Assembly (NCBI RefSeq): GCF_031624635.1
Contig: NZ_JAMQOQ010000008.1
Span: forward strand, 1 to 64,000
Direction of reading: 5' to 3'
Length of the DNA: 64,000 bases
From: Halogeometricum sp. S3BR5-2
Lineage (GTDB): Archaea; Halobacteriota; Halobacteria; Halobacteriales; Haloferacaceae
Part shown: piece after piece, positions 50,104 through 64,000 of the stretch
Layout: each line of letters starts with the position of its first letter
Position numbering within the stretch: the stretch's first letter is position 1
The notes under the pieces: model-generated
Told to the model about the DNA's origin: nothing
Seen by the model: only the letters and a program-made list of their open reading frames with translations
Database searches by the model: none
Translations under genes and position numbers: made by a program

Positions 50104-50970
50104 CTATTCTTCCCACCAACGGCCGCGTTCTGGGAACTCGATACGCGACCACCCGGTCAGCGCGATTGAGCACCGGCCTTCGTACCAGTTCTTGGCTGCT
50201 GCCCGGAACCGGACCGTTTCGCCTTCCTGCACCACTGTCTGCTGCGATTTCTCCCAGCAGGTGAACTTGATTTTTCCACTGTCATCCGCTATCAGCCCGA
50301 CTTGCTGGATGCTTGAGGAGGAAGGCTCCCAGAGGGTCTCGATTGTTCCTTCGACCGTCACTTCCCCGACGGGCACGTCCGGCACATCTGCGACGGGCAC
50401 GATTGCACCGGGAACTGCCTTCAGTTCCTCCAACGTCTCCAGCACCGCCTTGGTCACGTCCTGGCCGCGTTCCACCCTCTCGGCCAACTGCTTCGCGACG
50501 ACCGCTCTCGACCAGCCGCCCTGCACTTCGTCGCTGATCCGCATCGCCTGCTCGTTGACCGCCGCGAGTTCCTCCTGCGTCAGCTTCTCTCGGGGATCCG
50601 TGCGCTCCACCGGTTCGGGCTCGTCTCGGCCACACTGCTCGACGACGACCTTTCGCGTCCGCTTCGCGCGTCCCTCCTGCTGACTGAGTTCCGCCTGGGC
50701 ACTGATGTGCTCCAGCTCGGCTTCCCGGGCCTCGATGCGCTCTTCCTGTTCGAGGGTCTTCCCGAACAGGTGATCCGGGCCTTCCTCGACCCGCGCGTCC
50801 GGATGGTTGGAATCGACTTTCGCCTGCACTTCCATGTCGACCGTCGCCCGGAACTCCGGCGTCCCGTCGACGACCTCGAACCCATCCTCGTCGACCTCGA
50901 CGTCATCGTGTTTCTCGAAAGCCTGTTCATCGACCGAAACTACATCCGTGGTGACGTTCTTACTTGACAT
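50104..50970 (-). CDS. Replication protein A-like single-stranded DNA-binding protein
   Basis: A 288-residue RPA relative. The N-terminal half is charged ('EVVDGTPEFRATVDMEVQAKVD...KTLEQEERIEAREAELEHISAQAELSQQEGRAKRTRKVVVEQC'). The C-terminal OB fold spans 'VTVEGTIETLWEPSSSSIQQVGLIADDSGKIKFTCWEKS...VRFRAAAKNWYEGRCSIALTGWSRIEFPERGRWWEE'. ATG 50970 (MSSKNVTTD) fits. It coats single strands during plasmid replication. A remnant copy is at 48161-48250, and two large hairpins lie upstream. Confidence 0.85.
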   Translation of the reverse strand: MSSKNVTTDVVSVDEQAFEKHDDVEVDEDGFEVVDGTPEFRATVDMEVQAKVDSNHPDARVEEGPDHLFGKTLEQEERIEAREAELEHISAQAELSQQEGRAKRTRKVVVEQCGRDEPEPVERTDPREKLTQEELAAVNEQAMRISDEVQGGWSRAVVAKQLAERVERGQDVTKAVLETLEELKAVPGAIVPVADVPDVPVGEVTVEGTIETLWEPSSSSIQQVGLIADDSGKIKFTCWEKSQQTVVQEGETVRFRAAAKNWYEGRCSIALTGWSRIEFPERGRWWEE

Positions 50971-51017
50971 TGGAATCACTCACAGGTGATTTCCGACGAA
51001 GGCGCTCACGCGCCGAC

Positions 51018-53876: not shown

Positions 53877-56800
53877 TCAATCGTCCTGCTCGTCAGAAAT
53901 AAGATCCAGAGAGTAGCGAATGGCCTCCTCGGTGCGATATGGATCTATCGAAGCTTTCCGCTTAACCGCGTCTCCATGTGCTAACGGATTCTCGAGTACT
54001 GCCAGTTCATACGACCCGTCCTCGCTGGATCCATCATACACTCGATAGAGATAGAACCGGTCTTGATGGGTCAGGGCTTGTTGGACCTGGCCGTCATCCA
54101 AAGTTACGTATCCCTGTTGACTTGTACTGCTTTTCACCTCGATATATCGATCTATGAGGGTTCTGTCAGGGTCTGATTCGAATGCCTCTTTGCGTTCCTC
54201 CGTCTCAAAACTCAATACGTCACACCCATAGCTTTCGCTTCCTTGGATATGTGAAACGAGGATTGGGAAACGTCCCGCGTCAATTTCGAACCAGTATGCG
54301 AGTTTTTCGGCTCCTTCAGAATCGGGTACATCGTATGTTCCCGATGTCGACCGGCTCTGTGATGTCTGGGATGTTCGGCGAATCGTGATGGATCTTCCCT
54401 TCACCGGGTCGAAGCCCTGTTGCTTTGATGAGACGCCCTCTATCGATTCGTCGATGCCAGATTGTGCTGTCGAAGCAGATGTTTCGTCAGCTGTCTGTTG
54501 GGAATTGACAGCCGATCCGTCACGCGAGGGGGTATCTCCCGATCGCTCTCTTTCTGTTTTCTTGGTTCGATCCATTCCGTCCGTGACTTCAGGCGCAGTG
54601 AAAACCGAGTCCGACTCTACAGAGGTTTCACCTGTGAGGTGCGCTCTAGATTCACGTAAGCGCTTATGCGCGGATTCGTCACCTAAGAGCACCTCCAAAC
54701 GCTGACTCCGATCATTTGCTGTTGCGAGCGAGAGAATATCCTTGCTCAGCTTCTTATCAAGGATATCTGAAAAAACATCTCCGACCAACCGAGCAAGATG
54801 GTCATCAGTCACCTGTGGTCTCCCGTCGAGAATATCGGGCACAACATACACTGTCGAATCGTCAATGAGGTACGATCCTGGTTGAAGTTCGATATCGAAG
54901 GTATCGCTACCAACTGATGCAGTCGCCTTTACCGCGTTACATAGGACGATCTCTGCGTCGCGTATCGCCCGTAGCTCCCGGCGATTATCGTCGCCATCAA
55001 CTCTGAAGGCGTAAATGAACGGCTTCAACTCTTCAACCTCCTGCGAAAACTCGTCCATATACAGGTGGTGGTCGTAGTCGACGTCTGAAATGTTGATATC
55101 AGAGTTTGTGAGCCCCTCTACGCCGAAGAACTGTTTCACCTTCTCAGTACCTTGGCGGTTATCGAGCCTCAGTGAGGGGTATCTGTCCTCAACTGGTGCA
55201 GGAATTGAGTCGGTGTTTGTGTATCGCAGCTCGGACACCGGATAGTACCCTTCGACTCCCTCGTGAGTTCCGAACATTTCCCCATTCTCAACGAAATCAG
55301 CACGCAGAGATGCTGGTGGAGTCTCGTCACTTTCGCGGTTCTTTAGCAAGGTTCGATAGACCCGCTTTGCCACCTTGCCGTCCGGATCCCGATCAGGAAG
55401 GTTAAACAGAATTTCGTAGAACGATTCCCACGAAAGATCGGCGAGTGTATTCGTTACACCCAGGTCTCGGAGCGTTTTGGAGATGTCAGTTTCGTCAACA
55501 CCCAGTTCGGAGAAGAGCGGATATTCTGGATCTACTGCCGGATATCCAACTAATGGCGAGATATCCTCCGCTAACGATGCTGTCGAGCAAGTCTGTGGAG
55601 TCTGAAGATCCGTCTCCCCACTTTGGACAGGAAGCCACATGCTCGTTCGGAGAATCCAGTAAGGGTGGGATGGTACAGACTGCTCGTTAAGCGATTTCCA
55701 ATTTTGGTGGTACTTGGGTTTGATCTCAAGTATCGCGTCTGATCCATTCTTCCGCCACCGATTGGTCGTCTCTGGAATCGTCGCAAGCCACGCGAGTATC
55801 GCATACGGATGTGCGCTTTCGACGATCTCCTCAAGTCGGTCGACTGTCTCGACCCTTCGTAGCCGATAATTCCGTGTCGACGTAACGTCATTCGGGGTTT
55901 CTTTTGTTTCACTCCCGAACTCAGCTGGATAGTCTAATGTCTCGAGGACGTGGTCAAAGAAGTCAGAATTACTCATCTCATGTTGCTCTAATCGCGGCTC
56001 ATCGGCGACACCCAACCAAAGCAAGAACGACTCTAGCCTGCTCAAATCGTCACAGAAGTCTAATTCTGTGGGACTTACGACGAACAGCTCCTGATCTACT
56101 GACTCATACAGATGTTCGACCAATTTGCCGTTGGGGTACTCACCCGTTAGATAGAGAGAGTTGGCCTTTGCGAAAGTCCCGGTACGTGTCGGAATAAAAA
56201 TCGAGACTTCTGAGAGGCTCACGCCCTTAGCACCGGCTTCGTAGAGGTTCCATAGCCCCCGTAGCATCTTTCGGCGCCAATGTGCCTCTGACTCCGGATC
56301 CTGAGAAACGCGGTCGTTCGCTTCAGTGACAACCGCTTGGACTAACCCTGAAAGCTCGTACTCACGAATATTAAACGACGATAGCTTCATTCGCAAATCT
56401 CGAATACTGGTTAATCCCCAGTTCGACTGCAGCTTTGATGCAAGATCGGGGTGAAGAATATCTCTTGGAACCCATGAAGGGAGTGTAATCGACTCCCCTT
56501 GTGGTGGGAGGAATGTCGTTCGTTCAGACGGGATTGTAGTACCCTCGCCATCGATCAGAAGACGCGGTGGAGTCTCGTCTCCAATGAGATTATTATCGAC
56601 GAGACGGGTGATGATGCCTGCTCGGGCTGTCATAGACAGGTCGCTTGAAATACTATCGAGTCGGGTTCGTAGGTCTGTGTAGTCGATGTATCCAACGTCT
56701 AGACGATCCAGCTGGTTCCTCACATCATGACTATTCGTGTGCAGACAGACATCGTCGAATAGCTCTCCTTGGAGTAGGTCATCAAAATCACCGGAAATCC

Positions 56801-58112
56801 GCTTTGCCTGTGCGGGGGTTGTAAAGGAACCATCCTGCACTGGAATAAGAGAACGCGTAGCAACTTTTGACTCAAGCAACTGCTTGAACGAGGTTTGGTC
56901 TTCATCCGGTGCTCCGAGGTTGTTTAGCGTAGAACCGATTGGTCCAGTGGGTGAAACTGTACGGAGAGCGGCCCACGGGGTTTCTTTAGATCGGTGGTCC
57001 TCCGCTGCATCAATCATCTTCGACGCTAATCGTTCAGCGACGAATCGATTAGCATCGCTCTCTATCAGGTGATTTCGTGACTCTGTCACCTGAAACGTGG
57101 CGTGCGCCAACATCGGAAATGGGAACGAGACCTTGGTAGGGAAGAAAACAAAGAGATCAGATGGTAGCTTTGTCCATCCGGTGTCCTCGGGGATAGCGAT
57201 TTTAATCTCGTACCGGTCTTTAGTTTGCGAAGTGGTGGTATATTCCTCCGGAATTTCTCCTGAGTCTTCGAATATTTTCCACGTAGTCGGTTCACCGCTG
57301 CCGTGGTCAACAATAACTTTCTCCTCACCGCGTTCGACACTCCAATCCTCTTCTCGTTCTGGACTGCGAATACGAAGATCGTCTACGCTCCGTAGGAACA
57401 GCGTGAGCTCTTTGAAGAGGGAGTTGATCTCCTTCTGAACTTGGTTCCGACTACCGCTGTCAAACAGAGGAATGCAGATTACAGTGTCGTATCCTTGGGC
57501 CTTGATTTGTTGCCCTTGTTTGTAGACTTCCTCAAAACGTGTATCTACAACGTCGCTCTCTGAGAGAAGTCGTGGCGTGCTCAGCGTTGCGATTGGACTT
57601 GAGGCACCCCGCTGCTCGTATCGCTTAGCTTTCCTATCAATTTCGTCGTTTTCGGCACGGAGTTTGTTTAAAAACTCAGATGCGAATTGGTCCGAGAATC
57701 CGATCGATACGTCCCCGCTGTGTATGAGTACGTCCGAACTCCAATTCAAAATAGACCGAAATCCAAGTCCCTTGTAGCCGATACACTCCTCCCGGAATTG
57801 TTTCGGGCTATTGTCGCTGAGCATTAAGGAACTGATTCCCTCGCGGGAGAAGGGGTCCCCACTATTAGCGACGAATAGGCCTTCCTCTGTCAGTTCTATC
57901 AGGACATCAACCGAACCGGACGATTCCCAGCCGGCATCGTCAGCGTTCTGAATGAGCTCCAGTAGTCCACGACCAGAATATCCGTCAATATGCTTCGTCT
58001 CTCGATTATAGTCCGAAAAGAGTCGATCCTCGTCACGATGGTAGACGTCTTCCATCTTCTGGAGTTGGTCTTCCACCCAACTCCCCCATTCTTCAGACGA
58101 AGTATTTGGCAC
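53877..58112 (-). CDS. Giant HSP90-like ATPase (sacsin-type) with C-terminal DUF3883 nuclease-like domain
   Basis: A 1411-residue protein. The GHKL ATPase lies in the first 250 residues: E52 and N55 in 'LLELIQNADDAGW', the ADP-site D86 in 'VANSGDPFSREGI', and the lid 'GYKGLGFRSIL' (112-122). A long helical middle has no named domain. Residues about 1280-1400 resemble DUF3883, with D and E/K in 'YGCDVLSFETEE...RYIEVKSSTSQQ', a PD-(D/E)xK-like set. The gene looks A/T-richer than its neighbours, suggesting recent transfer. Such fusions are suspected defence proteins. Confidence 0.75.
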   Translation of the reverse strand: MPNTSSEEWGSWVEDQLQKMEDVYHRDEDRLFSDYNRETKHIDGYSGRGLLELIQNADDAGWESSGSVDVLIELTEEGLFVANSGDPFSREGISSLMLSDNSPKQFREECIGYKGLGFRSILNWSSDVLIHSGDVSIGFSDQFASEFLNKLRAENDEIDRKAKRYEQRGASSPIATLSTPRLLSESDVVDTRFEEVYKQGQQIKAQGYDTVICIPLFDSGSRNQVQKEINSLFKELTLFLRSVDDLRIRSPEREEDWSVERGEEKVIVDHGSGEPTTWKIFEDSGEIPEEYTTTSQTKDRYEIKIAIPEDTGWTKLPSDLFVFFPTKVSFPFPMLAHATFQVTESRNHLIESDANRFVAERLASKMIDAAEDHRSKETPWAALRTVSPTGPIGSTLNNLGAPDEDQTSFKQLLESKVATRSLIPVQDGSFTTPAQAKRISGDFDDLLQGELFDDVCLHTNSHDVRNQLDRLDVGYIDYTDLRTRLDSISSDLSMTARAGIITRLVDNNLIGDETPPRLLIDGEGTTIPSERTTFLPPQGESITLPSWVPRDILHPDLASKLQSNWGLTSIRDLRMKLSSFNIREYELSGLVQAVVTEANDRVSQDPESEAHWRRKMLRGLWNLYEAGAKGVSLSEVSIFIPTRTGTFAKANSLYLTGEYPNGKLVEHLYESVDQELFVVSPTELDFCDDLSRLESFLLWLGVADEPRLEQHEMSNSDFFDHVLETLDYPAEFGSETKETPNDVTSTRNYRLRRVETVDRLEEIVESAHPYAILAWLATIPETTNRWRKNGSDAILEIKPKYHQNWKSLNEQSVPSHPYWILRTSMWLPVQSGETDLQTPQTCSTASLAEDISPLVGYPAVDPEYPLFSELGVDETDISKTLRDLGVTNTLADLSWESFYEILFNLPDRDPDGKVAKRVYRTLLKNRESDETPPASLRADFVENGEMFGTHEGVEGYYPVSELRYTNTDSIPAPVEDRYPSLRLDNRQGTEKVKQFFGVEGLTNSDINISDVDYDHHLYMDEFSQEVEELKPFIYAFRVDGDDNRRELRAIRDAEIVLCNAVKATASVGSDTFDIELQPGSYLIDDSTVYVVPDILDGRPQVTDDHLARLVGDVFSDILDKKLSKDILSLATANDRSQRLEVLLGDESAHKRLRESRAHLTGETSVESDSVFTAPEVTDGMDRTKKTERERSGDTPSRDGSAVNSQQTADETSASTAQSGIDESIEGVSSKQQGFDPVKGRSITIRRTSQTSQSRSTSGTYDVPDSEGAEKLAYWFEIDAGRFPILVSHIQGSESYGCDVLSFETEERKEAFESDPDRTLIDRYIEVKSSTSQQGYVTLDDGQVQQALTHQDRFYLYRVYDGSSEDGSYELAVLENPLAHGDAVKRKASIDPYRTEEAIRYSLDLISDEQDD

Positions 58113-58267: not shown

Positions 58268-60292
58268 CTACCGGTTGAACGAAACTATTTGTTTCGCTCG
58301 ATCCAGAGGGGACGGACCGTCAGTCTCGTTTTTTTCTTCTCCCGATTTGAGATCCTGTTCCGACTCTCGATCCTTGAGAGCGGACTCCAATCGATTCCGT
58401 TCTGCGCGTACCGTGGTTAGTTCCGTTCGGAGCTGGTCAATCTCCGCTTCCAGATCTTCAATTTCCTCTGATTTCTCGTCCAATTCAGACTCGAGTTGCT
58501 CAACCTTCGCTGACAGCAGCCGGTTCTTTTCGCGAAGGTGAACACGGTTCAGGTCACTCGTTGTCTCACCGCTCTCAGGGGCTTCAGTACCCGTTGTCAA
58601 TTCCTCATCCTCCTCTTCCTCTTCGGGCTGGACTGGCTCTCGGCCGTGCTGCAGCCCCGCCGCTTCGATGGCTTCCAATGTCTCGTTGTAGGTTTCGTAC
58701 CCGGGGAATCCCTCGTAGGTTCCTTCCTCACCCTCACGATCGACGAACGCGTCCTCTGGACAGATCTCGAGCGCGACAGCTGCTTTCCGAACGGCCCAGA
58801 AGGGCATCTGGTCGTAGGTTCCGCCGTCGACGCGGTCTGACCCGACGTCTGGAACCCACACCGGAATGTCGTAGCCGGCGCTCCGCAGTTCATCGACGGC
58901 CGCCCAGTAATCCTCCCCATCGAGATCCGCATCGGCGTCGGAGATAATCCCCGTCGCGAGCGCCATTAGCTTCGCCGGCCCGCCCCCGGCGTTCACCTTC
59001 GAATCGCCGAAGGTGTTGGCCTGCTCGTCGACGAAACAGGACTGCCCGCTTTCGCTGTGCCGCCAGCATGGGTCGAACTGCGGCCGCGGCTGGTTTGGAT
59101 CCGTATCGTAGGCATCGCTCGCGTAGTGCCGGGCGATCTCGGTGATGTCGATATTCTCGACAGCCTCGTAGACGTCCTCTTTGAACGGCGTAATGGGCCG
59201 GCCTTCGAGGGCGCCATCGAGTTCTGCCATCCGCTCCTCACGTCGCTGAAGCGCCGCCTCACGCTGTCGCTCTCGCTCCCGTTCCCGCTCGCGCTCCGCT
59301 TCGATCCACGCCTCCAGCGTTGTCCGCCACCCGTCGTGGTCCTCGTACAGATCCGGCCAGAGCGTCGCGACCAGCGAGTCGACGGAGTCTGTGTGCTCAA
59401 CCTGCGTGAGCTCGTCGGCCCAGCTGACGGCCTGCTCGATGAGGGTGTCATCGACGGTCTCGAACGGACGGAGCTCGTAGCGAACGTCGTCGGTCGTGAT
59501 GGGCGTGACGACAGCATCGTGATCAGCGTGAACCGACAGCGGCGGCTTGTACTGCCGATTCTTGTTGTTCACCCAGTCGGGCTGGATGACGTCGCCGGCG
59601 CCGTCGATGCGTTCGTTCACGCGGGCCTCTGCCTCTTGGAGCCACGCGTTCGAGCGGTCGAGAAACTCGTCGAATACCCGTTGGAGCGCATCCGGATCAT
59701 CGCTGAAGTGATCCGCAATCGGGAGCGTGGCCTCCGGGGCTCCGAAAATGTACGCGCCCCCGACGGAGTCCAGCGCATACACAGCGTCTCGCGTGCCGTA
59801 CAGCGTTGCATACTCCTCGATGTAGGCCTCGAGGGTCCGCTCCACGAGGGTACGCGTCTCGGCATCGAGGTGGTCACGTTGCGGCTTGATATCATCAGCG
59901 AGGTCAATATCGCCCCAAGCGGGAACCGCCCGGATGTCGGCATACCCGGGGGTCGGGGGCTCATCCTGCCAGACGGTCGTCCCCTCGGATTGGTCGTACC
60001 GACAAGGTTCCCACCGCTGGAAGGCCGACGGCGTCTTGTAGGTGGTGACGGCATAGAGGGTCCGTTCGAGGCGGTCGTGAATCTCGTCGTAGTCGCGATC
60101 GAGGCGGGTAACCCGCCCGCGCTGCGGATACCCGGCCTTGATCGCCTCCACGTCGTCGTGGTCGCGTTTGATGTACCACCCGACGAAGTCGTTCAGCCCG
60201 ATGGTTGGATAGTCTTTGACGGCCGCCAGCGCCTCGTAGACGGGTTTGGCGCGACGGTAGTGCTCACTGATAGCTGATTTTGAGAGCGTCAT
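58268..60292 (-). CDS. Large plasmid protein, primase-like candidate, with coiled coil
   Basis: A 674-residue protein. The N-terminal 300 residues contain 'GLNDFVGWYIKRDHDDVEAIKAGYP' and 'YALDSVGGAYIFGAPEATLPIADHF', reminiscent of archaeo-eukaryotic primase-polymerases, but I cannot place the catalytic Asp/His set with certainty. Residues about 330-355 are an Arg/Glu helix. A region 'FDPCWRHSESGQSCFVDEQANTFGDSKVNAGGGPAKLMALATGIISD' resembles primase-associated zinc/C-terminal segments. The last 100 residues are a coiled coil. It follows the ATPase gene by 39 bp, with E14 between. Confidence 0.5.
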   Translation of the reverse strand: MTLSKSAISEHYRRAKPVYEALAAVKDYPTIGLNDFVGWYIKRDHDDVEAIKAGYPQRGRVTRLDRDYDEIHDRLERTLYAVTTYKTPSAFQRWEPCRYDQSEGTTVWQDEPPTPGYADIRAVPAWGDIDLADDIKPQRDHLDAETRTLVERTLEAYIEEYATLYGTRDAVYALDSVGGAYIFGAPEATLPIADHFSDDPDALQRVFDEFLDRSNAWLQEAEARVNERIDGAGDVIQPDWVNNKNRQYKPPLSVHADHDAVVTPITTDDVRYELRPFETVDDTLIEQAVSWADELTQVEHTDSVDSLVATLWPDLYEDHDGWRTTLEAWIEAERERERERERQREAALQRREERMAELDGALEGRPITPFKEDVYEAVENIDITEIARHYASDAYDTDPNQPRPQFDPCWRHSESGQSCFVDEQANTFGDSKVNAGGGPAKLMALATGIISDADADLDGEDYWAAVDELRSAGYDIPVWVPDVGSDRVDGGTYDQMPFWAVRKAAVALEICPEDAFVDREGEEGTYEGFPGYETYNETLEAIEAAGLQHGREPVQPEEEEEDEELTTGTEAPESGETTSDLNRVHLREKNRLLSAKVEQLESELDEKSEEIEDLEAEIDQLRTELTTVRAERNRLESALKDRESEQDLKSGEEKNETDGPSPLDRAKQIVSFNR

Positions 60293-60298
60293 CTCGTG

Positions 60299-60325
60299 TG
60301 CTCCTGCACCTCCTGAGCGGGAGCA
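60299..60325 (-). promoter_or_regulatory. Hairpin element E14
   Basis: TGCTCC/GGAGCA arms around a loop with TCAGGAGGTGCA, the best Shine-Dalgarno-like loop in the set. It ends 6 bp before the start codon, in the 39-bp gap after the ATPase gene. Confidence 0.55.
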
Positions 60326-60331
60326 GAACGA

Positions 60332-63300
60332 TTACACACTGACATCGGTCGATTCCTCCCGGTCGCCGGCGTCGGCCAGCTCGATTCCGACGTAACACCG
60401 TTGCGTCTGTCCGTCCAGCCACTTTTTGCCACGCTCGAACTCAGCGTGGTCACGAAGGGCCTGTGTGAACCGGGTTTTCGGCTTCACCTCGTACTCCTCT
60501 GTCGCCGCATACTGCTCGTACGCATCGTAGACATCGGCGACTGCGACGACCCCGTCGTCGGATTCAACGATGCTATCGCGGACGAATGCTTGGATGCCGA
60601 ACGGATCGTTCTCGTGGTCTTCCTGAGTCATGGATTGCTCATCGGCAGGTTCGTCTGGCTCCACACCTGCCAGATGGAGTTCATTATTTTCGATCGCTTC
60701 TGTGAGCGCAGCGAGGTCTTTGGTCGCGTCAGAGTCCGGGGTGTAGAGCTCGAGATTCTGCTCATCCCCGATGACGCCTATCGCATACGAGTCACCCGTG
60801 TACTCCGGAACGGGTAGGTCGGTACTGGGCACGAACGGGCGCTTGACAGGTACCCAGTCCGCTTCGAATGCCTCGCGGGACTCGTAGGTCTCGGGGAGTT
60901 CTCCCGGCCTGAAGACGGTGTATGTCTCGCTCTCGGCGTCGTAGCTGTATGTCGCCGGGAACTGATCTTTCGACACAGCGTCGAAGGAGTCGATCCGGGC
61001 GTGCTGGTCTCCGGCACTATCCTGGAGGACGAACGCACCGTCCCGCTCGAACCAGCGGGTGTGGCGACTGCCGCCAGTGGCCGGTCGGACGGCCGTCACT
61101 CCATCCGCGGCTCGCGCACCACCGTTGAATGTGACGTTGTGGTTCATCGTATACAGCCGCGTCTCACCGGATGAGAGCTGATTTCGCGGCTCGCGGAGGA
61201 TCTTCGCGAGCCGGTCGGCAATCTCGGCAGCCGGTTGATCGTCGTGGTCTGCGACGACGAACAGCGGGATTCGCTCCTGTTCCTGGGCTTTCCGGAGGTT
61301 CGAGAGGACCTTCGCCGGCCGGACGTGGGTGGTGGTTTCGACCTCCACCTGGAGCTCCCTGTCGAGATCCGGATGCGTCGCGATGGCGTCGGGGCGGGAC
61401 TCCCCGTTCTGATCGAGCACCTCCACGGAGAACCCCGTAGTTGCGAGCGACTGCTCGACCGTTTCAAGAACTGAATCGTGGTGCTCGCCCCCGCCGGTCG
61501 GTGACGTTGACGTGTCGGGCGTGGCTGCCTGCTCACCCTCATCCGTGAGCCGACACTGAACTGACGATCCCCCGTCCGGGAGATCGACCTCGATGAGCGA
61601 GGACGCCTCCCGCACCTCCGGAAGCGTCTCGTAGCCCTGCGCCTCGATAGTGCCTTCCTCGATGCGCGAGAGCAGTTCCTCGTCGACGTCCTCGACAGAC
61701 ACCCAGCCGTTCGTTTCGCGGACGTTGTTCGACAGCTGGACGGCGCGGATCGCACGGGCCATCGCGACCTCCAACGGCAGATCGTCGGCGTTCTCCAGAG
61801 CGACGTCAGTCGCCGCGTCACGGCTCTCCACGGTCGTCCCGCCGGCGACCCCGTACTCCTCGCGGGTATGCTCGTGGACGGCCTCCAGGGCGTCTTGGAA
61901 CCGCTCTTCCTGCGCCCCGGTCAGAGGCTGCTCGCTATCGGGATGCCCGGGCGGAATCGGGAGGGGTTCGATACTGAACGGGTCCGGGCCGGTTTCGCCG
62001 AACTCCGGACTCGGGAGCTGAGCGATCCACTCGCCACGCGGGAGTGAACTGATCCGATTCTTGAACTCGACGGGATCCATCGCCTCGTGTGAGAGTGCCT
62101 CGGCGATGTCGGCGTCGACGGCGATCTTCCCGACGAGCGGACTGCCGATGTTGTTCAGGACGTTCAGATAGACCTCGCGGTTGCCAGCCTCCTTCATCTG
62201 CTCGGGGAACTGCGTCACGAGTTCGATGGATAGCCGGAACTCCCGCCCCTTTTCGAGCAGCGTCGTCAGCGTATCCGAGACGACGACGGAGGACGCTTCG
62301 TCGATGAGCAGGTTCGCCACGTAGTCGTCCGGCTTGCGGGCCAGCTCGTCGCCGTCGCGACGCTTGACGGCGTCGTAAAGCTGCGTCAGAATAACGCCGG
62401 TCATCACACGGGCGGCCTCGTCGCGGAGATCGCCGAGGTCGAAGATGACCACCTTGTCCTCGTCGAGGAGGTCGCGGAAGTCGAACTGCGACTGGGTATT
62501 GTTGAAGATCCGTCGGAGGTGGGCGTCCTGCGTGATGTAGTCCATCCGGTTGCTGATGCCACTCACGACGTTCGAGAACGTCGCCGGGTTCGAGCGCAGG
62601 TGTCGCTCCAGTTTCTCCGCGACTTGCGGGTCGCTGGCTCGCGGTGCATCTTCGGGTGTCGAATCTGGTGGGCCGGCGGCATGGAACTGGGTCACCGCCT
62701 GCTCGAACTGGTCGTGGGTGAAGTAGTTCGTATCCTGCCGGAAGTGTCCGTTTTCGAGGCCGTACTCCTCGTCGTACATCGCCTTAATGAGGTACTTGAT
62801 GAGCGTCGGCGAGGCGATGGCGTCCTCGTACCGCTCCGGCCCCATCACGAGCTTGATGAGCTCCTCGTAGTGGTCGGCTTTATCCTGGATCGCGTCGACG
62901 CGACGGACTCCATCCTCGAGCGCCGGCGTAATGTCGAAGAACGCGAAGCCAGGCAGGATGTCAGGCACCGAGAAGTGGAGGACGTTCTCCTCGAGGTCCT
63001 CAGTCCCGAACCGCTTCGCGTGAGCCCGCATATAGTTCTCGGGGAGGTTCCCGCCCTTGGAGTCGATGAGGAACACTGGGCCCGTGGTATGGTCGTACAG
63101 GGAGAGCGCGTCGTTGATCAGCGCGACCGATTTACCGGCGCCGCTCTTCGCGAACCGGCCGACGTGAAACGGCAGCAAATGCGGAGGAATCCGCATCGGC
63201 TCTGACGTGGGCGTGCCGTCCTCCCCGAGCCCGCGGCCGATCGCCATCCCGGAGTCCGTGAACGCATCCATGTGGTCCTGCGCCGGGAGCGGCAGGGGCG

Positions 63301-63988
63301 TCCGGCTCTCGGGTTCGGCGTCGGACCCCCGCCCGCCCTCGGTCGTGAGGTCAGTCGCCGGTGGAACGACCACGAAGTTCGCCAACTCAGCCGGCCCGAG
63401 GACGAGATCGGGTCGTGTTTTCCGCCAGTCGCTCTTGGTAGCCAACGTAGCGTTGAGTACCCGGTCGGCGTGCTTCTTGGCCCGCCGCCCCTTTCGAAGC
63501 CCACGGCGAATGCGCTTCGGTCGGAGTCGATAGTGTGGCCCGTTCAGGTGGTCAAACACGGACCCGATATCGTCGAGACGATGGTCAACCCGCTCTCGTT
63601 GTCGGTCGGAGGTCACGAGAGAAAGTGCCCGCAAATTCACCGTGAACGTGTGCTGTGGCTCCTTCTCGTCGATAGCCTCGACTCGCTCCCGCCCACCGAT
63701 GTCGAGATACCGACGCTGTCGCCCGGTGTTCGACGGGCTCTGTGGTTCGTTCTCCGTATTCCCGAGGAGTTCTCCGAAGAACCAATCGACGACCCGGTCT
63801 TCGCCTTCACGGAGCTTCCGCTGGCGCTCTCGTGCCTCGTGCGTCCAGTCCGATTTCCGCTGAAAGAGTACCTGGAAGGCGATCGGGTGTTCGGCCCGGG
63901 TCAGCTGATCGATGAGTGACGCGAGCGGGGCCCGAGCGTGATCGTCATCGTCGTCTTCCGTATTCGTGAATTGGGGTAGTGTCGTCAT
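60332..63988 (-). CDS. HerA/VirD4-like DNA-transfer ATPase with nuclease-like and winged-helix C-terminal parts
   Basis: A protein of at least 1218 residues. Walker A is 'GRFAKSGAGKSVALINDALS' (from 277), followed by 'GPVFLIDSKGGNLPENYMRAHAKRFG'; Walker B is 'NLLIDEASSVV' (near 560). This is the pattern of HerA/FtsK/VirD4-type DNA pumps. Near residue 870, 'ESRPDAIATHPDLDRELQVEVETTTH' looks like a PD-(D/E)xK-type core. The C-terminus ('FVRDSIVESDDGVVAVADVYDAYEQYAATEEYEVKPKTRFTQAL') resembles the winged helix of D5/primase-helicases. The frame is open upstream of 63988 to the window edge, so the start may lie outside. Probably the coupling or segregation motor of the element. Confidence 0.75.
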   Translation of the reverse strand: MTTLPQFTNTEDDDDDHARAPLASLIDQLTRAEHPIAFQVLFQRKSDWTHEARERQRKLREGEDRVVDWFFGELLGNTENEPQSPSNTGRQRRYLDIGGRERVEAIDEKEPQHTFTVNLRALSLVTSDRQRERVDHRLDDIGSVFDHLNGPHYRLRPKRIRRGLRKGRRAKKHADRVLNATLATKSDWRKTRPDLVLGPAELANFVVVPPATDLTTEGGRGSDAEPESRTPLPLPAQDHMDAFTDSGMAIGRGLGEDGTPTSEPMRIPPHLLPFHVGRFAKSGAGKSVALINDALSLYDHTTGPVFLIDSKGGNLPENYMRAHAKRFGTEDLEENVLHFSVPDILPGFAFFDITPALEDGVRRVDAIQDKADHYEELIKLVMGPERYEDAIASPTLIKYLIKAMYDEEYGLENGHFRQDTNYFTHDQFEQAVTQFHAAGPPDSTPEDAPRASDPQVAEKLERHLRSNPATFSNVVSGISNRMDYITQDAHLRRIFNNTQSQFDFRDLLDEDKVVIFDLGDLRDEAARVMTGVILTQLYDAVKRRDGDELARKPDDYVANLLIDEASSVVVSDTLTTLLEKGREFRLSIELVTQFPEQMKEAGNREVYLNVLNNIGSPLVGKIAVDADIAEALSHEAMDPVEFKNRISSLPRGEWIAQLPSPEFGETGPDPFSIEPLPIPPGHPDSEQPLTGAQEERFQDALEAVHEHTREEYGVAGGTTVESRDAATDVALENADDLPLEVAMARAIRAVQLSNNVRETNGWVSVEDVDEELLSRIEEGTIEAQGYETLPEVREASSLIEVDLPDGGSSVQCRLTDEGEQAATPDTSTSPTGGGEHHDSVLETVEQSLATTGFSVEVLDQNGESRPDAIATHPDLDRELQVEVETTTHVRPAKVLSNLRKAQEQERIPLFVVADHDDQPAAEIADRLAKILREPRNQLSSGETRLYTMNHNVTFNGGARAADGVTAVRPATGGSRHTRWFERDGAFVLQDSAGDQHARIDSFDAVSKDQFPATYSYDAESETYTVFRPGELPETYESREAFEADWVPVKRPFVPSTDLPVPEYTGDSYAIGVIGDEQNLELYTPDSDATKDLAALTEAIENNELHLAGVEPDEPADEQSMTQEDHENDPFGIQAFVRDSIVESDDGVVAVADVYDAYEQYAATEEYEVKPKTRFTQALRDHAEFERGKKWLDGQTQRCYVGIELADAGDREESTDVSV

Positions 63989-64000
63989 CCAGTCTTCCCG

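Follow-up and report, generated by a model that had tools for sequence, protein, structure and literature searches.

What might a DNA pump and a primase do together in a haloarchaeon? The question is raised by the end of our window (the whole stretch of 64,000 nucleotides from Halogeometricum sp. S3BR5-2 that was analysed), where a gene for a large pump-like ATPase (gene A) is followed by one for a primase-like protein (gene B). The preliminary description saw in this pair a possible self-contained replication or conjugation module of a new haloarchaeal element. Our analysis favors conjugation: we estimate a probability of about 0.6 that a motor, a possible nuclease, and a primase act together here as a relaxase-less archaeal conjugation module. 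Both ORFs (60332-63988 and 58268-60292) are present on the minus strand, 39 bp apart, with no gene found between them; the E14 that had been placed there matches nothing in this position. Both genes are under purifying selection (dN/dS about 0.09-0.15 for A and about 0.15-0.17 for B), and they comprise the following features:

60332..63988 (-), gene A, TraG/VirD4-like DNA-pump ATPase (PF02534 and PF03288); the part inside the window, 1218 of ~1456 aa
62087..63166 (-), motor domain of A (PF02534/PF01935 stretches; Walker A GAGKS; Walker B-like NLLIDEA)
61187..61489 (-), PD-(D/E)xK-like segment of A (column conservation; PD 866-867, ExE 882/884, candidate Lys 893 or 900)
60389..60613 (-), C-terminal D5-like winged helix of A (PF03288; TIGR01613, E 0.0017)
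58268..60292 (-), gene B, 674 aa, AEP-like primase carrying a linker domain and ending in a coiled coil (from motifs, fusions, and slot)
59393..60292 (-), AEP-like catalytic region of B (alignment of 12 homologues)
58823..59215 (-), B's linker domain, shared with haloarchaeal PrimPol-helicase-like ORFs (E 1e-17 to 1e-25 by profile)
58271..58564 (-), C-terminal coiled coil of B with its basic tip (coiled-coil HMM; tail charge)

The two-ORF arrangement stands as first described, but the ATG at 63988 is internal to gene A and not its start: the frame continues past position 64000, and followed beyond the window end it is open for 1480 aa. The true start likely lies at position 64702 of the host contig (C8); the protein would then be 1456 aa long, and its gene would overlap the stop of the VirB4-like gene by 8 nt, as in a Halorientalis marina plasmid. 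The HerA/VirD4-type motor proposed for A was confirmed by a match to T4SS-DNA_transf that exceeds the Pfam cut-off (PF02534; 23.3 vs. 20.1 bits, E 3.4e-5). Across the 80 pump loci that we surveyed in genomes of the window's family, Walker A and EA[AS] occur in every pump (80/80), and the GxGK of Walker A is invariant in the pump alignment. No Kyte-Doolittle segment (19 residues, >=1.6), and so no predicted transmembrane helix, was found in full-length A (1456 aa) or in any of 80 relatives. We call A VirD4-like rather than VirD4 because the N-terminal transmembrane segment of typical VirD4 proteins is missing. No solved structures matching A by sequence were found. The viral contigs searched held no pump relative and one distant relative of B.

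Judged by its sequence, B is likely a primase of the AEP superfamily. The alignment of 12 homologues placed its catalytic motifs at WGDIDL (residues 126-131), LDSVGGAYIF (174-183), and PDWVNNKNRQYKPPLSVH (238-255), conserved across the family as WGDIDL, LDSxGGxY, and PDW..NxNRQYK.PLS.H. The DxD and the D239 region are conserved, and a Tyr replaces the AEP His of motif II in every homologue that covers this motif. Relaxed conservation of the motif II His has been reported for the PrimPol-PV1 supergroup (PMC5862659), of which B is a candidate member at most. Our assignment draws on these motifs and on fusions of B homologues to a D5/SF3 helicase (pHTUR06) or to the HBD domain of NrS-1 polymerase (Halococcus dombrowskii), with one Halococcus protein (L022) combining a B-type AEP, HBD, and coil. 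It also draws on the linker domain, common to haloarchaeal ORFs with a PrimPol-like N-terminus (a PrimPol-helicase reading), on a slot that clear AEPs occupy in related loci, and on a common tail. The primase-like stretches noted earlier in B are thus backed by motifs and fusions but not by a profile: no AEP profile (Pfam primases included) or PDB chain matched B significantly, and direct profile-profile comparison with two clear AEP kinds gave short motif matches alone, which are suggestive at most. Both AlphaFold models are poor (mean pLDDT near 42; for B, pLDDT 41 and pTM 0.31), and the folds of A and B therefore rest on sequence. The database name 'ZapB', given on one plasmid, would make B purely a coiled-coil protein; we rejected it, as conservation lies in the first 552 residues. 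The Haloarcula japonica copy of the B gene (L007 13697-16097) is split into two overlapping frames and for this reason looks broken.

We sorted the 80 pumps by similarity and extent into class P (7 pumps, window type), class Q (33 pumps, about half identical, full length), class R (22 pumps, shorter, without the winged helix), and class S (18 pumps, about one third identical). Besides A, the window's genome encodes two further pump paralogues (L002 and L003, contigs C7 and C10), a class R and a class S pump, each with its own primase type. An AEP-type primase gene lies downstream on the same strand in all 62 loci of classes P, Q, and R (62/62); it is in two ORFs at L085, L092, and L107, and is displaced by an inserted gene at some others. 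Class P pumps are followed by the B-type primase (7/7), class Q pumps by an NrS-1-like PrimPol with an HBD domain and a coiled coil (33/33), and class R pumps by a 294-aa PriS-like protein and then a 'primase-associated protein' (NF038197; 22/22). Class S has a primase near the pump in 12/18 loci, a figure given for the undivided class because its split by presence of a primase arose after the neighbours were seen. An NrS-1-like PrimPol is downstream on the same strand in six of these loci and elsewhere in the fetched stretch in another six (four adjacent and convergent), and the remaining six have none.

The Q-type primase matches structures of NrS-1 polymerase (6a9w, E 4.9e-34; best match 7ola, E 6.5e-35), and the R-type primase matches PriS (TIGR00335, E 1.6e-8; 1v33, E 0.0013). 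Three unrelated primase kinds (B-type, NrS-1-like PrimPol, and PriS-like) fill the slot. The 80 loci are kin and not 80 independent cases; the three unrelated kinds are the independent part of the survey. Because at least three such kinds hold the slot, the pairing of pump and primase has been rebuilt more than once.

By HMM comparison, B and the NrS-1-type primases of class Q have homologous coiled-coil tails, with matches of E 1e-20 to 3e-23 in P primases and 5e-16 to 3e-41 in Q primases; the coils of class S primases are weaker or different. In a tree of the pump motors, built by a quick method, the P clade nests inside Q, and its sister is a locus with a Q-type primase (L087; SH-aLRT 100). 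Since the B-type clade nests within the NrS-1-type clade, the catalytic domain appears, on the simplest reading, to have been replaced while the C-terminal coiled coil was retained. A basic, hydrophobic tip closes the primase tails: the mean net charge of the last 16 residues is +0.87 in 46 unique tails, whereas 441 other acidic ORFs from these loci average -1.88. The rows of this comparison are kin and its background takes in unverified ORFs, which leaves its p-value without meaning as such. A basic C-terminal tail is the type of signal carried by some bacterial T4SS substrates. By analogy, it is possible that primase B is exported via its tail.

At the C-terminus of A, the D5-like winged helix agrees with the preliminary description, its Pox_D5 score exceeding the Pfam cut-off (PF03288; 23.9 vs. 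21.4 bits, E 6e-5). A winged-helix HMM built in this analysis matched 40/40 P/Q pumps and 0/40 R/S pumps, and this split mirrors that of the strong coiled-coil matches in the primases. For the possible PD-(D/E)xK segment also described there, we recovered a conserved pattern, but no profile library puts a name to the segment and the canonical Lys is replaced. Read from aligned columns, PD, ExE, and KxxxNLxKA show little or no variation across 37 aligned P/Q pumps, and a strand comes after them. The ExE of A is without the canonical Lys of ExK, a Lys in the next helix being the candidate, and because of this missing Lys the nuclease activity of the segment is uncertain. In the C-terminal segment of R/S pumps, the D and first E are invariant in 40/40 aligned and stand in the same order as in P/Q; in some class S pumps the second acidic residue and the downstream Lys are not conserved. 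Profiles of the P/Q and R/S segments aligned over 143 columns (single-comparison E 0.00095, probability 9%), which is suggestive of one PD-(D/E)xK-like domain common to all pump classes. The helix and strand order in the AlphaFold model of this C-terminus fits PD-(D/E)xK but is unreliable at a mean pLDDT of 42.

It could be argued that the segment is a dead DNA-binding remnant and that the primase pairing is mere co-inheritance of a plasmid backbone. The absent canonical Lys, the second acidic residue lost from conservation in some class S pumps, and the close kinship of loci within one class, which are not independent, would all fit such an explanation. Nonetheless, we regard it as doubtful, considering the invariant D and first E in the 40 R/S pumps, the PD/ExE in the 37 P/Q pumps, and a pairing rebuilt more than once, with at least three unrelated primase kinds.

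The setting of the pair strongly argues that A and B close a haloarchaeal T4SS operon as its final two genes. The operon genes upstream of A were read on host contig C8 (148 kb), outside the window:

contig C8 73626-74678, xseA (by gene order and size vs. annotated relatives)
contig C8 73440-73622, xseB (by gene order and size vs. annotated relatives)
after xseB in the T4SS operon, 99-aa ORF
contig C8 71724-72146 (L023 11725-12147), protein of 140 aa at the operon head, with three hydrophobic stretches
between the 140-aa protein and TrbL/VirB6, 567-aa and 311-aa proteins
contig C8 67796-69151, TrbL/VirB6 protein (TrbL_3, E 8.8e-15)
between TrbL/VirB6 and the VirB4-like gene, 337-aa membrane protein
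contig C8 64695-66779, VirB4-like ATPase (AAA_10 and P-loop_TraG matches just below their cut-offs)

The order xseA-xseB, membrane proteins, TrbL/VirB6, VirB4-like, A, B is identical on pNG600 and on the Halorientalis marina plasmid. The sequence beyond 64000, where the frame of A continues and the VirB4-like and TrbL/VirB6 genes follow, together with the systematic co-occurrence of motor and primase, supports conjugation as it was initially suggested. A self-contained module is not supported, as a larger operon ends with A and B. Nor is a new element supported: several genera have pumps with 88-96% identity to A, including on sequenced plasmids such as pNG600, and the plasmids that carry A and B are already known (pNG600-type). 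A gene for an RPA-like ssDNA-binding protein (50104..50979, minus strand; PF21473, 23.9 vs. 24 bits; PRK07217 partial match) has homologues of 60-68% identity downstream in P and Q relatives and is a conserved plasmid backbone neighbour outside the operon. ArdC-like ssDNA-binding genes are found on two P-type plasmids. Both kinds of gene are consistent with single-stranded transfer without proving it.

A role in plasmid replication or segregation, with A pumping or resolving replicated DNA (HerA/FtsK-like) and B as the replicative primase, has in its favor the D5 type of A's winged helix. Plasmid pHTUR06 (15.8 kb) can be read the same way, its sole annotated replication protein being a fusion of a B-type AEP with a D5/SF3 helicase (L019 4969-8826). 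B itself, however, has lost the helicase, and A and B are co-directional with the VirB4 and TrbL genes in one operon. On plasmids of relatives, Orc1/Cdc6 and ParA are located away from the A-B operon, which is evidence against A and B as the replicon, and we find replication unlikely as the main role. That the operon serves DNA import or chromosomal exchange like Ced/Ted, rather than plasmid export, appears quite improbable: there are archaeal relatives of T4SS that were domesticated to import DNA (PMC9905601) and A has a weak similarity to CedB (NCBIfam, E 0.0064), but the genes are plasmid-borne and occur across many genera with 88-96% identity, a distribution in keeping with a mobile element.

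With regard to relaxases, our search covered two families. TrwC (PF08751) was found in 0/167 genomes, and PF03432 gave weak matches (~25 bits, 190-aa ORFs) in 4/167. One of these weak matches is in the window's own genome (190-aa ORF, contig C11 33419-33634 of G000) and the others are in three other genomes. Archaeal conjugative elements have been reported without recognisable relaxases (PMC9905601; PMC6563490; PMC12857230), and a 2025 review treats the relaxase-free making or conversion of the transferred DNA in such elements as an open question (PMC12857230).

In our favored reading, A and B form the DNA-processing end of a conjugation-type T4SS operon on haloarchaeal plasmids. A would be the coupling or pump ATPase of plasmid transfer, and its PD-(D/E)xK-like domain and winged helix would bind plasmid DNA and possibly cut or trim it. 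B may prime complementary-strand synthesis on the exported single strand, in the donor or the recipient, and its basic coiled-coil C-terminal tail may dock B on the pump or send it through. A further proposal, which we offer tentatively and with the odds against it, is a relaxase-free conjugation in which the motor-fused nuclease generates the end to be transferred and a neighbouring, exchangeable primase, carried by its conserved tail signal, rebuilds the second strand, the tail being a translocation or docking signal that outlives replacement of the catalytic domain.

Similar to bacterial VirD4/TraG/TraD, A has a P-loop motor, a PF02534 match, and VirB4-like and VirB6/TrbL neighbours; it differs in having no predicted transmembrane helix, in its added nuclease-like segment and D5 winged helix, and in that no relaxase gene was found with it. 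The Sulfolobus pNOB8-type plasmids, thaumarchaeal ICEs, and Thermococcus pT33-3 also have a VirB4-/VirD4-like pair and no identified relaxase (PMC6563490; PMC12857230), whereas in our operon the motor gene is immediately followed by one for a primase. Conserved conjugation genes of the thaumarchaeal ICEs are not syntenic, and some of these ICEs carry AEP-S3H replication proteins (PMC6563490). Integrated elements with the haloarchaeal fusexin Fsx1 come from the same host group and have HerA, VirB4, and TraG/VirD4-type genes, but a primase goes unmentioned in that paper (PMC9259645), unlike the pairing described here. Among NrS-1 phage polymerase and D5-type primase-helicases, the Q partners match NrS-1, and B has the linker and D5 fusions in common; B differs by its coiled-coil tail and its motif II Tyr, and by lacking both a helicase and an AEP profile match. 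The MOBQ relaxases of RSF1010/R1162 (MobA-RepB') also tie a primase to conjugal mobilization (PMC12857230; PMC5862659), although there the primase is fused to the relaxase, while here it is beside the motor and no relaxase was seen. Our literature search, with subscription journals largely outside its scope, found no paper on a motor-primase pairing, and novelty is thereby unproven. The systematic combination of a primase with a nuclease-like, VirD4-like motor offers two concrete proteins testable in genetically tractable haloarchaea, and hints at how these archaea might transmit plasmids without a relaxase of the usual bacterial kind.

Other genes of these loci also deserve mention. The 140-aa protein with three hydrophobic stretches is a candidate conjugative pilin. 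The xseA/xseB pair (contig C8 73440-74678; L023 13441-14679), for the ssDNA exonuclease VII, heads the transfer operon in several relatives. After B, the window encodes a Sacsin-like/NOV_C protein (53877-58112, minus strand) that matches TmtA of PADLOC (E 1.2e-285). On the H. marina plasmid this slot is taken by a different TmtA (L021 22918-29433) and in other relatives by other genes, and by this varied content it has the appearance of a cargo or defence hot spot.
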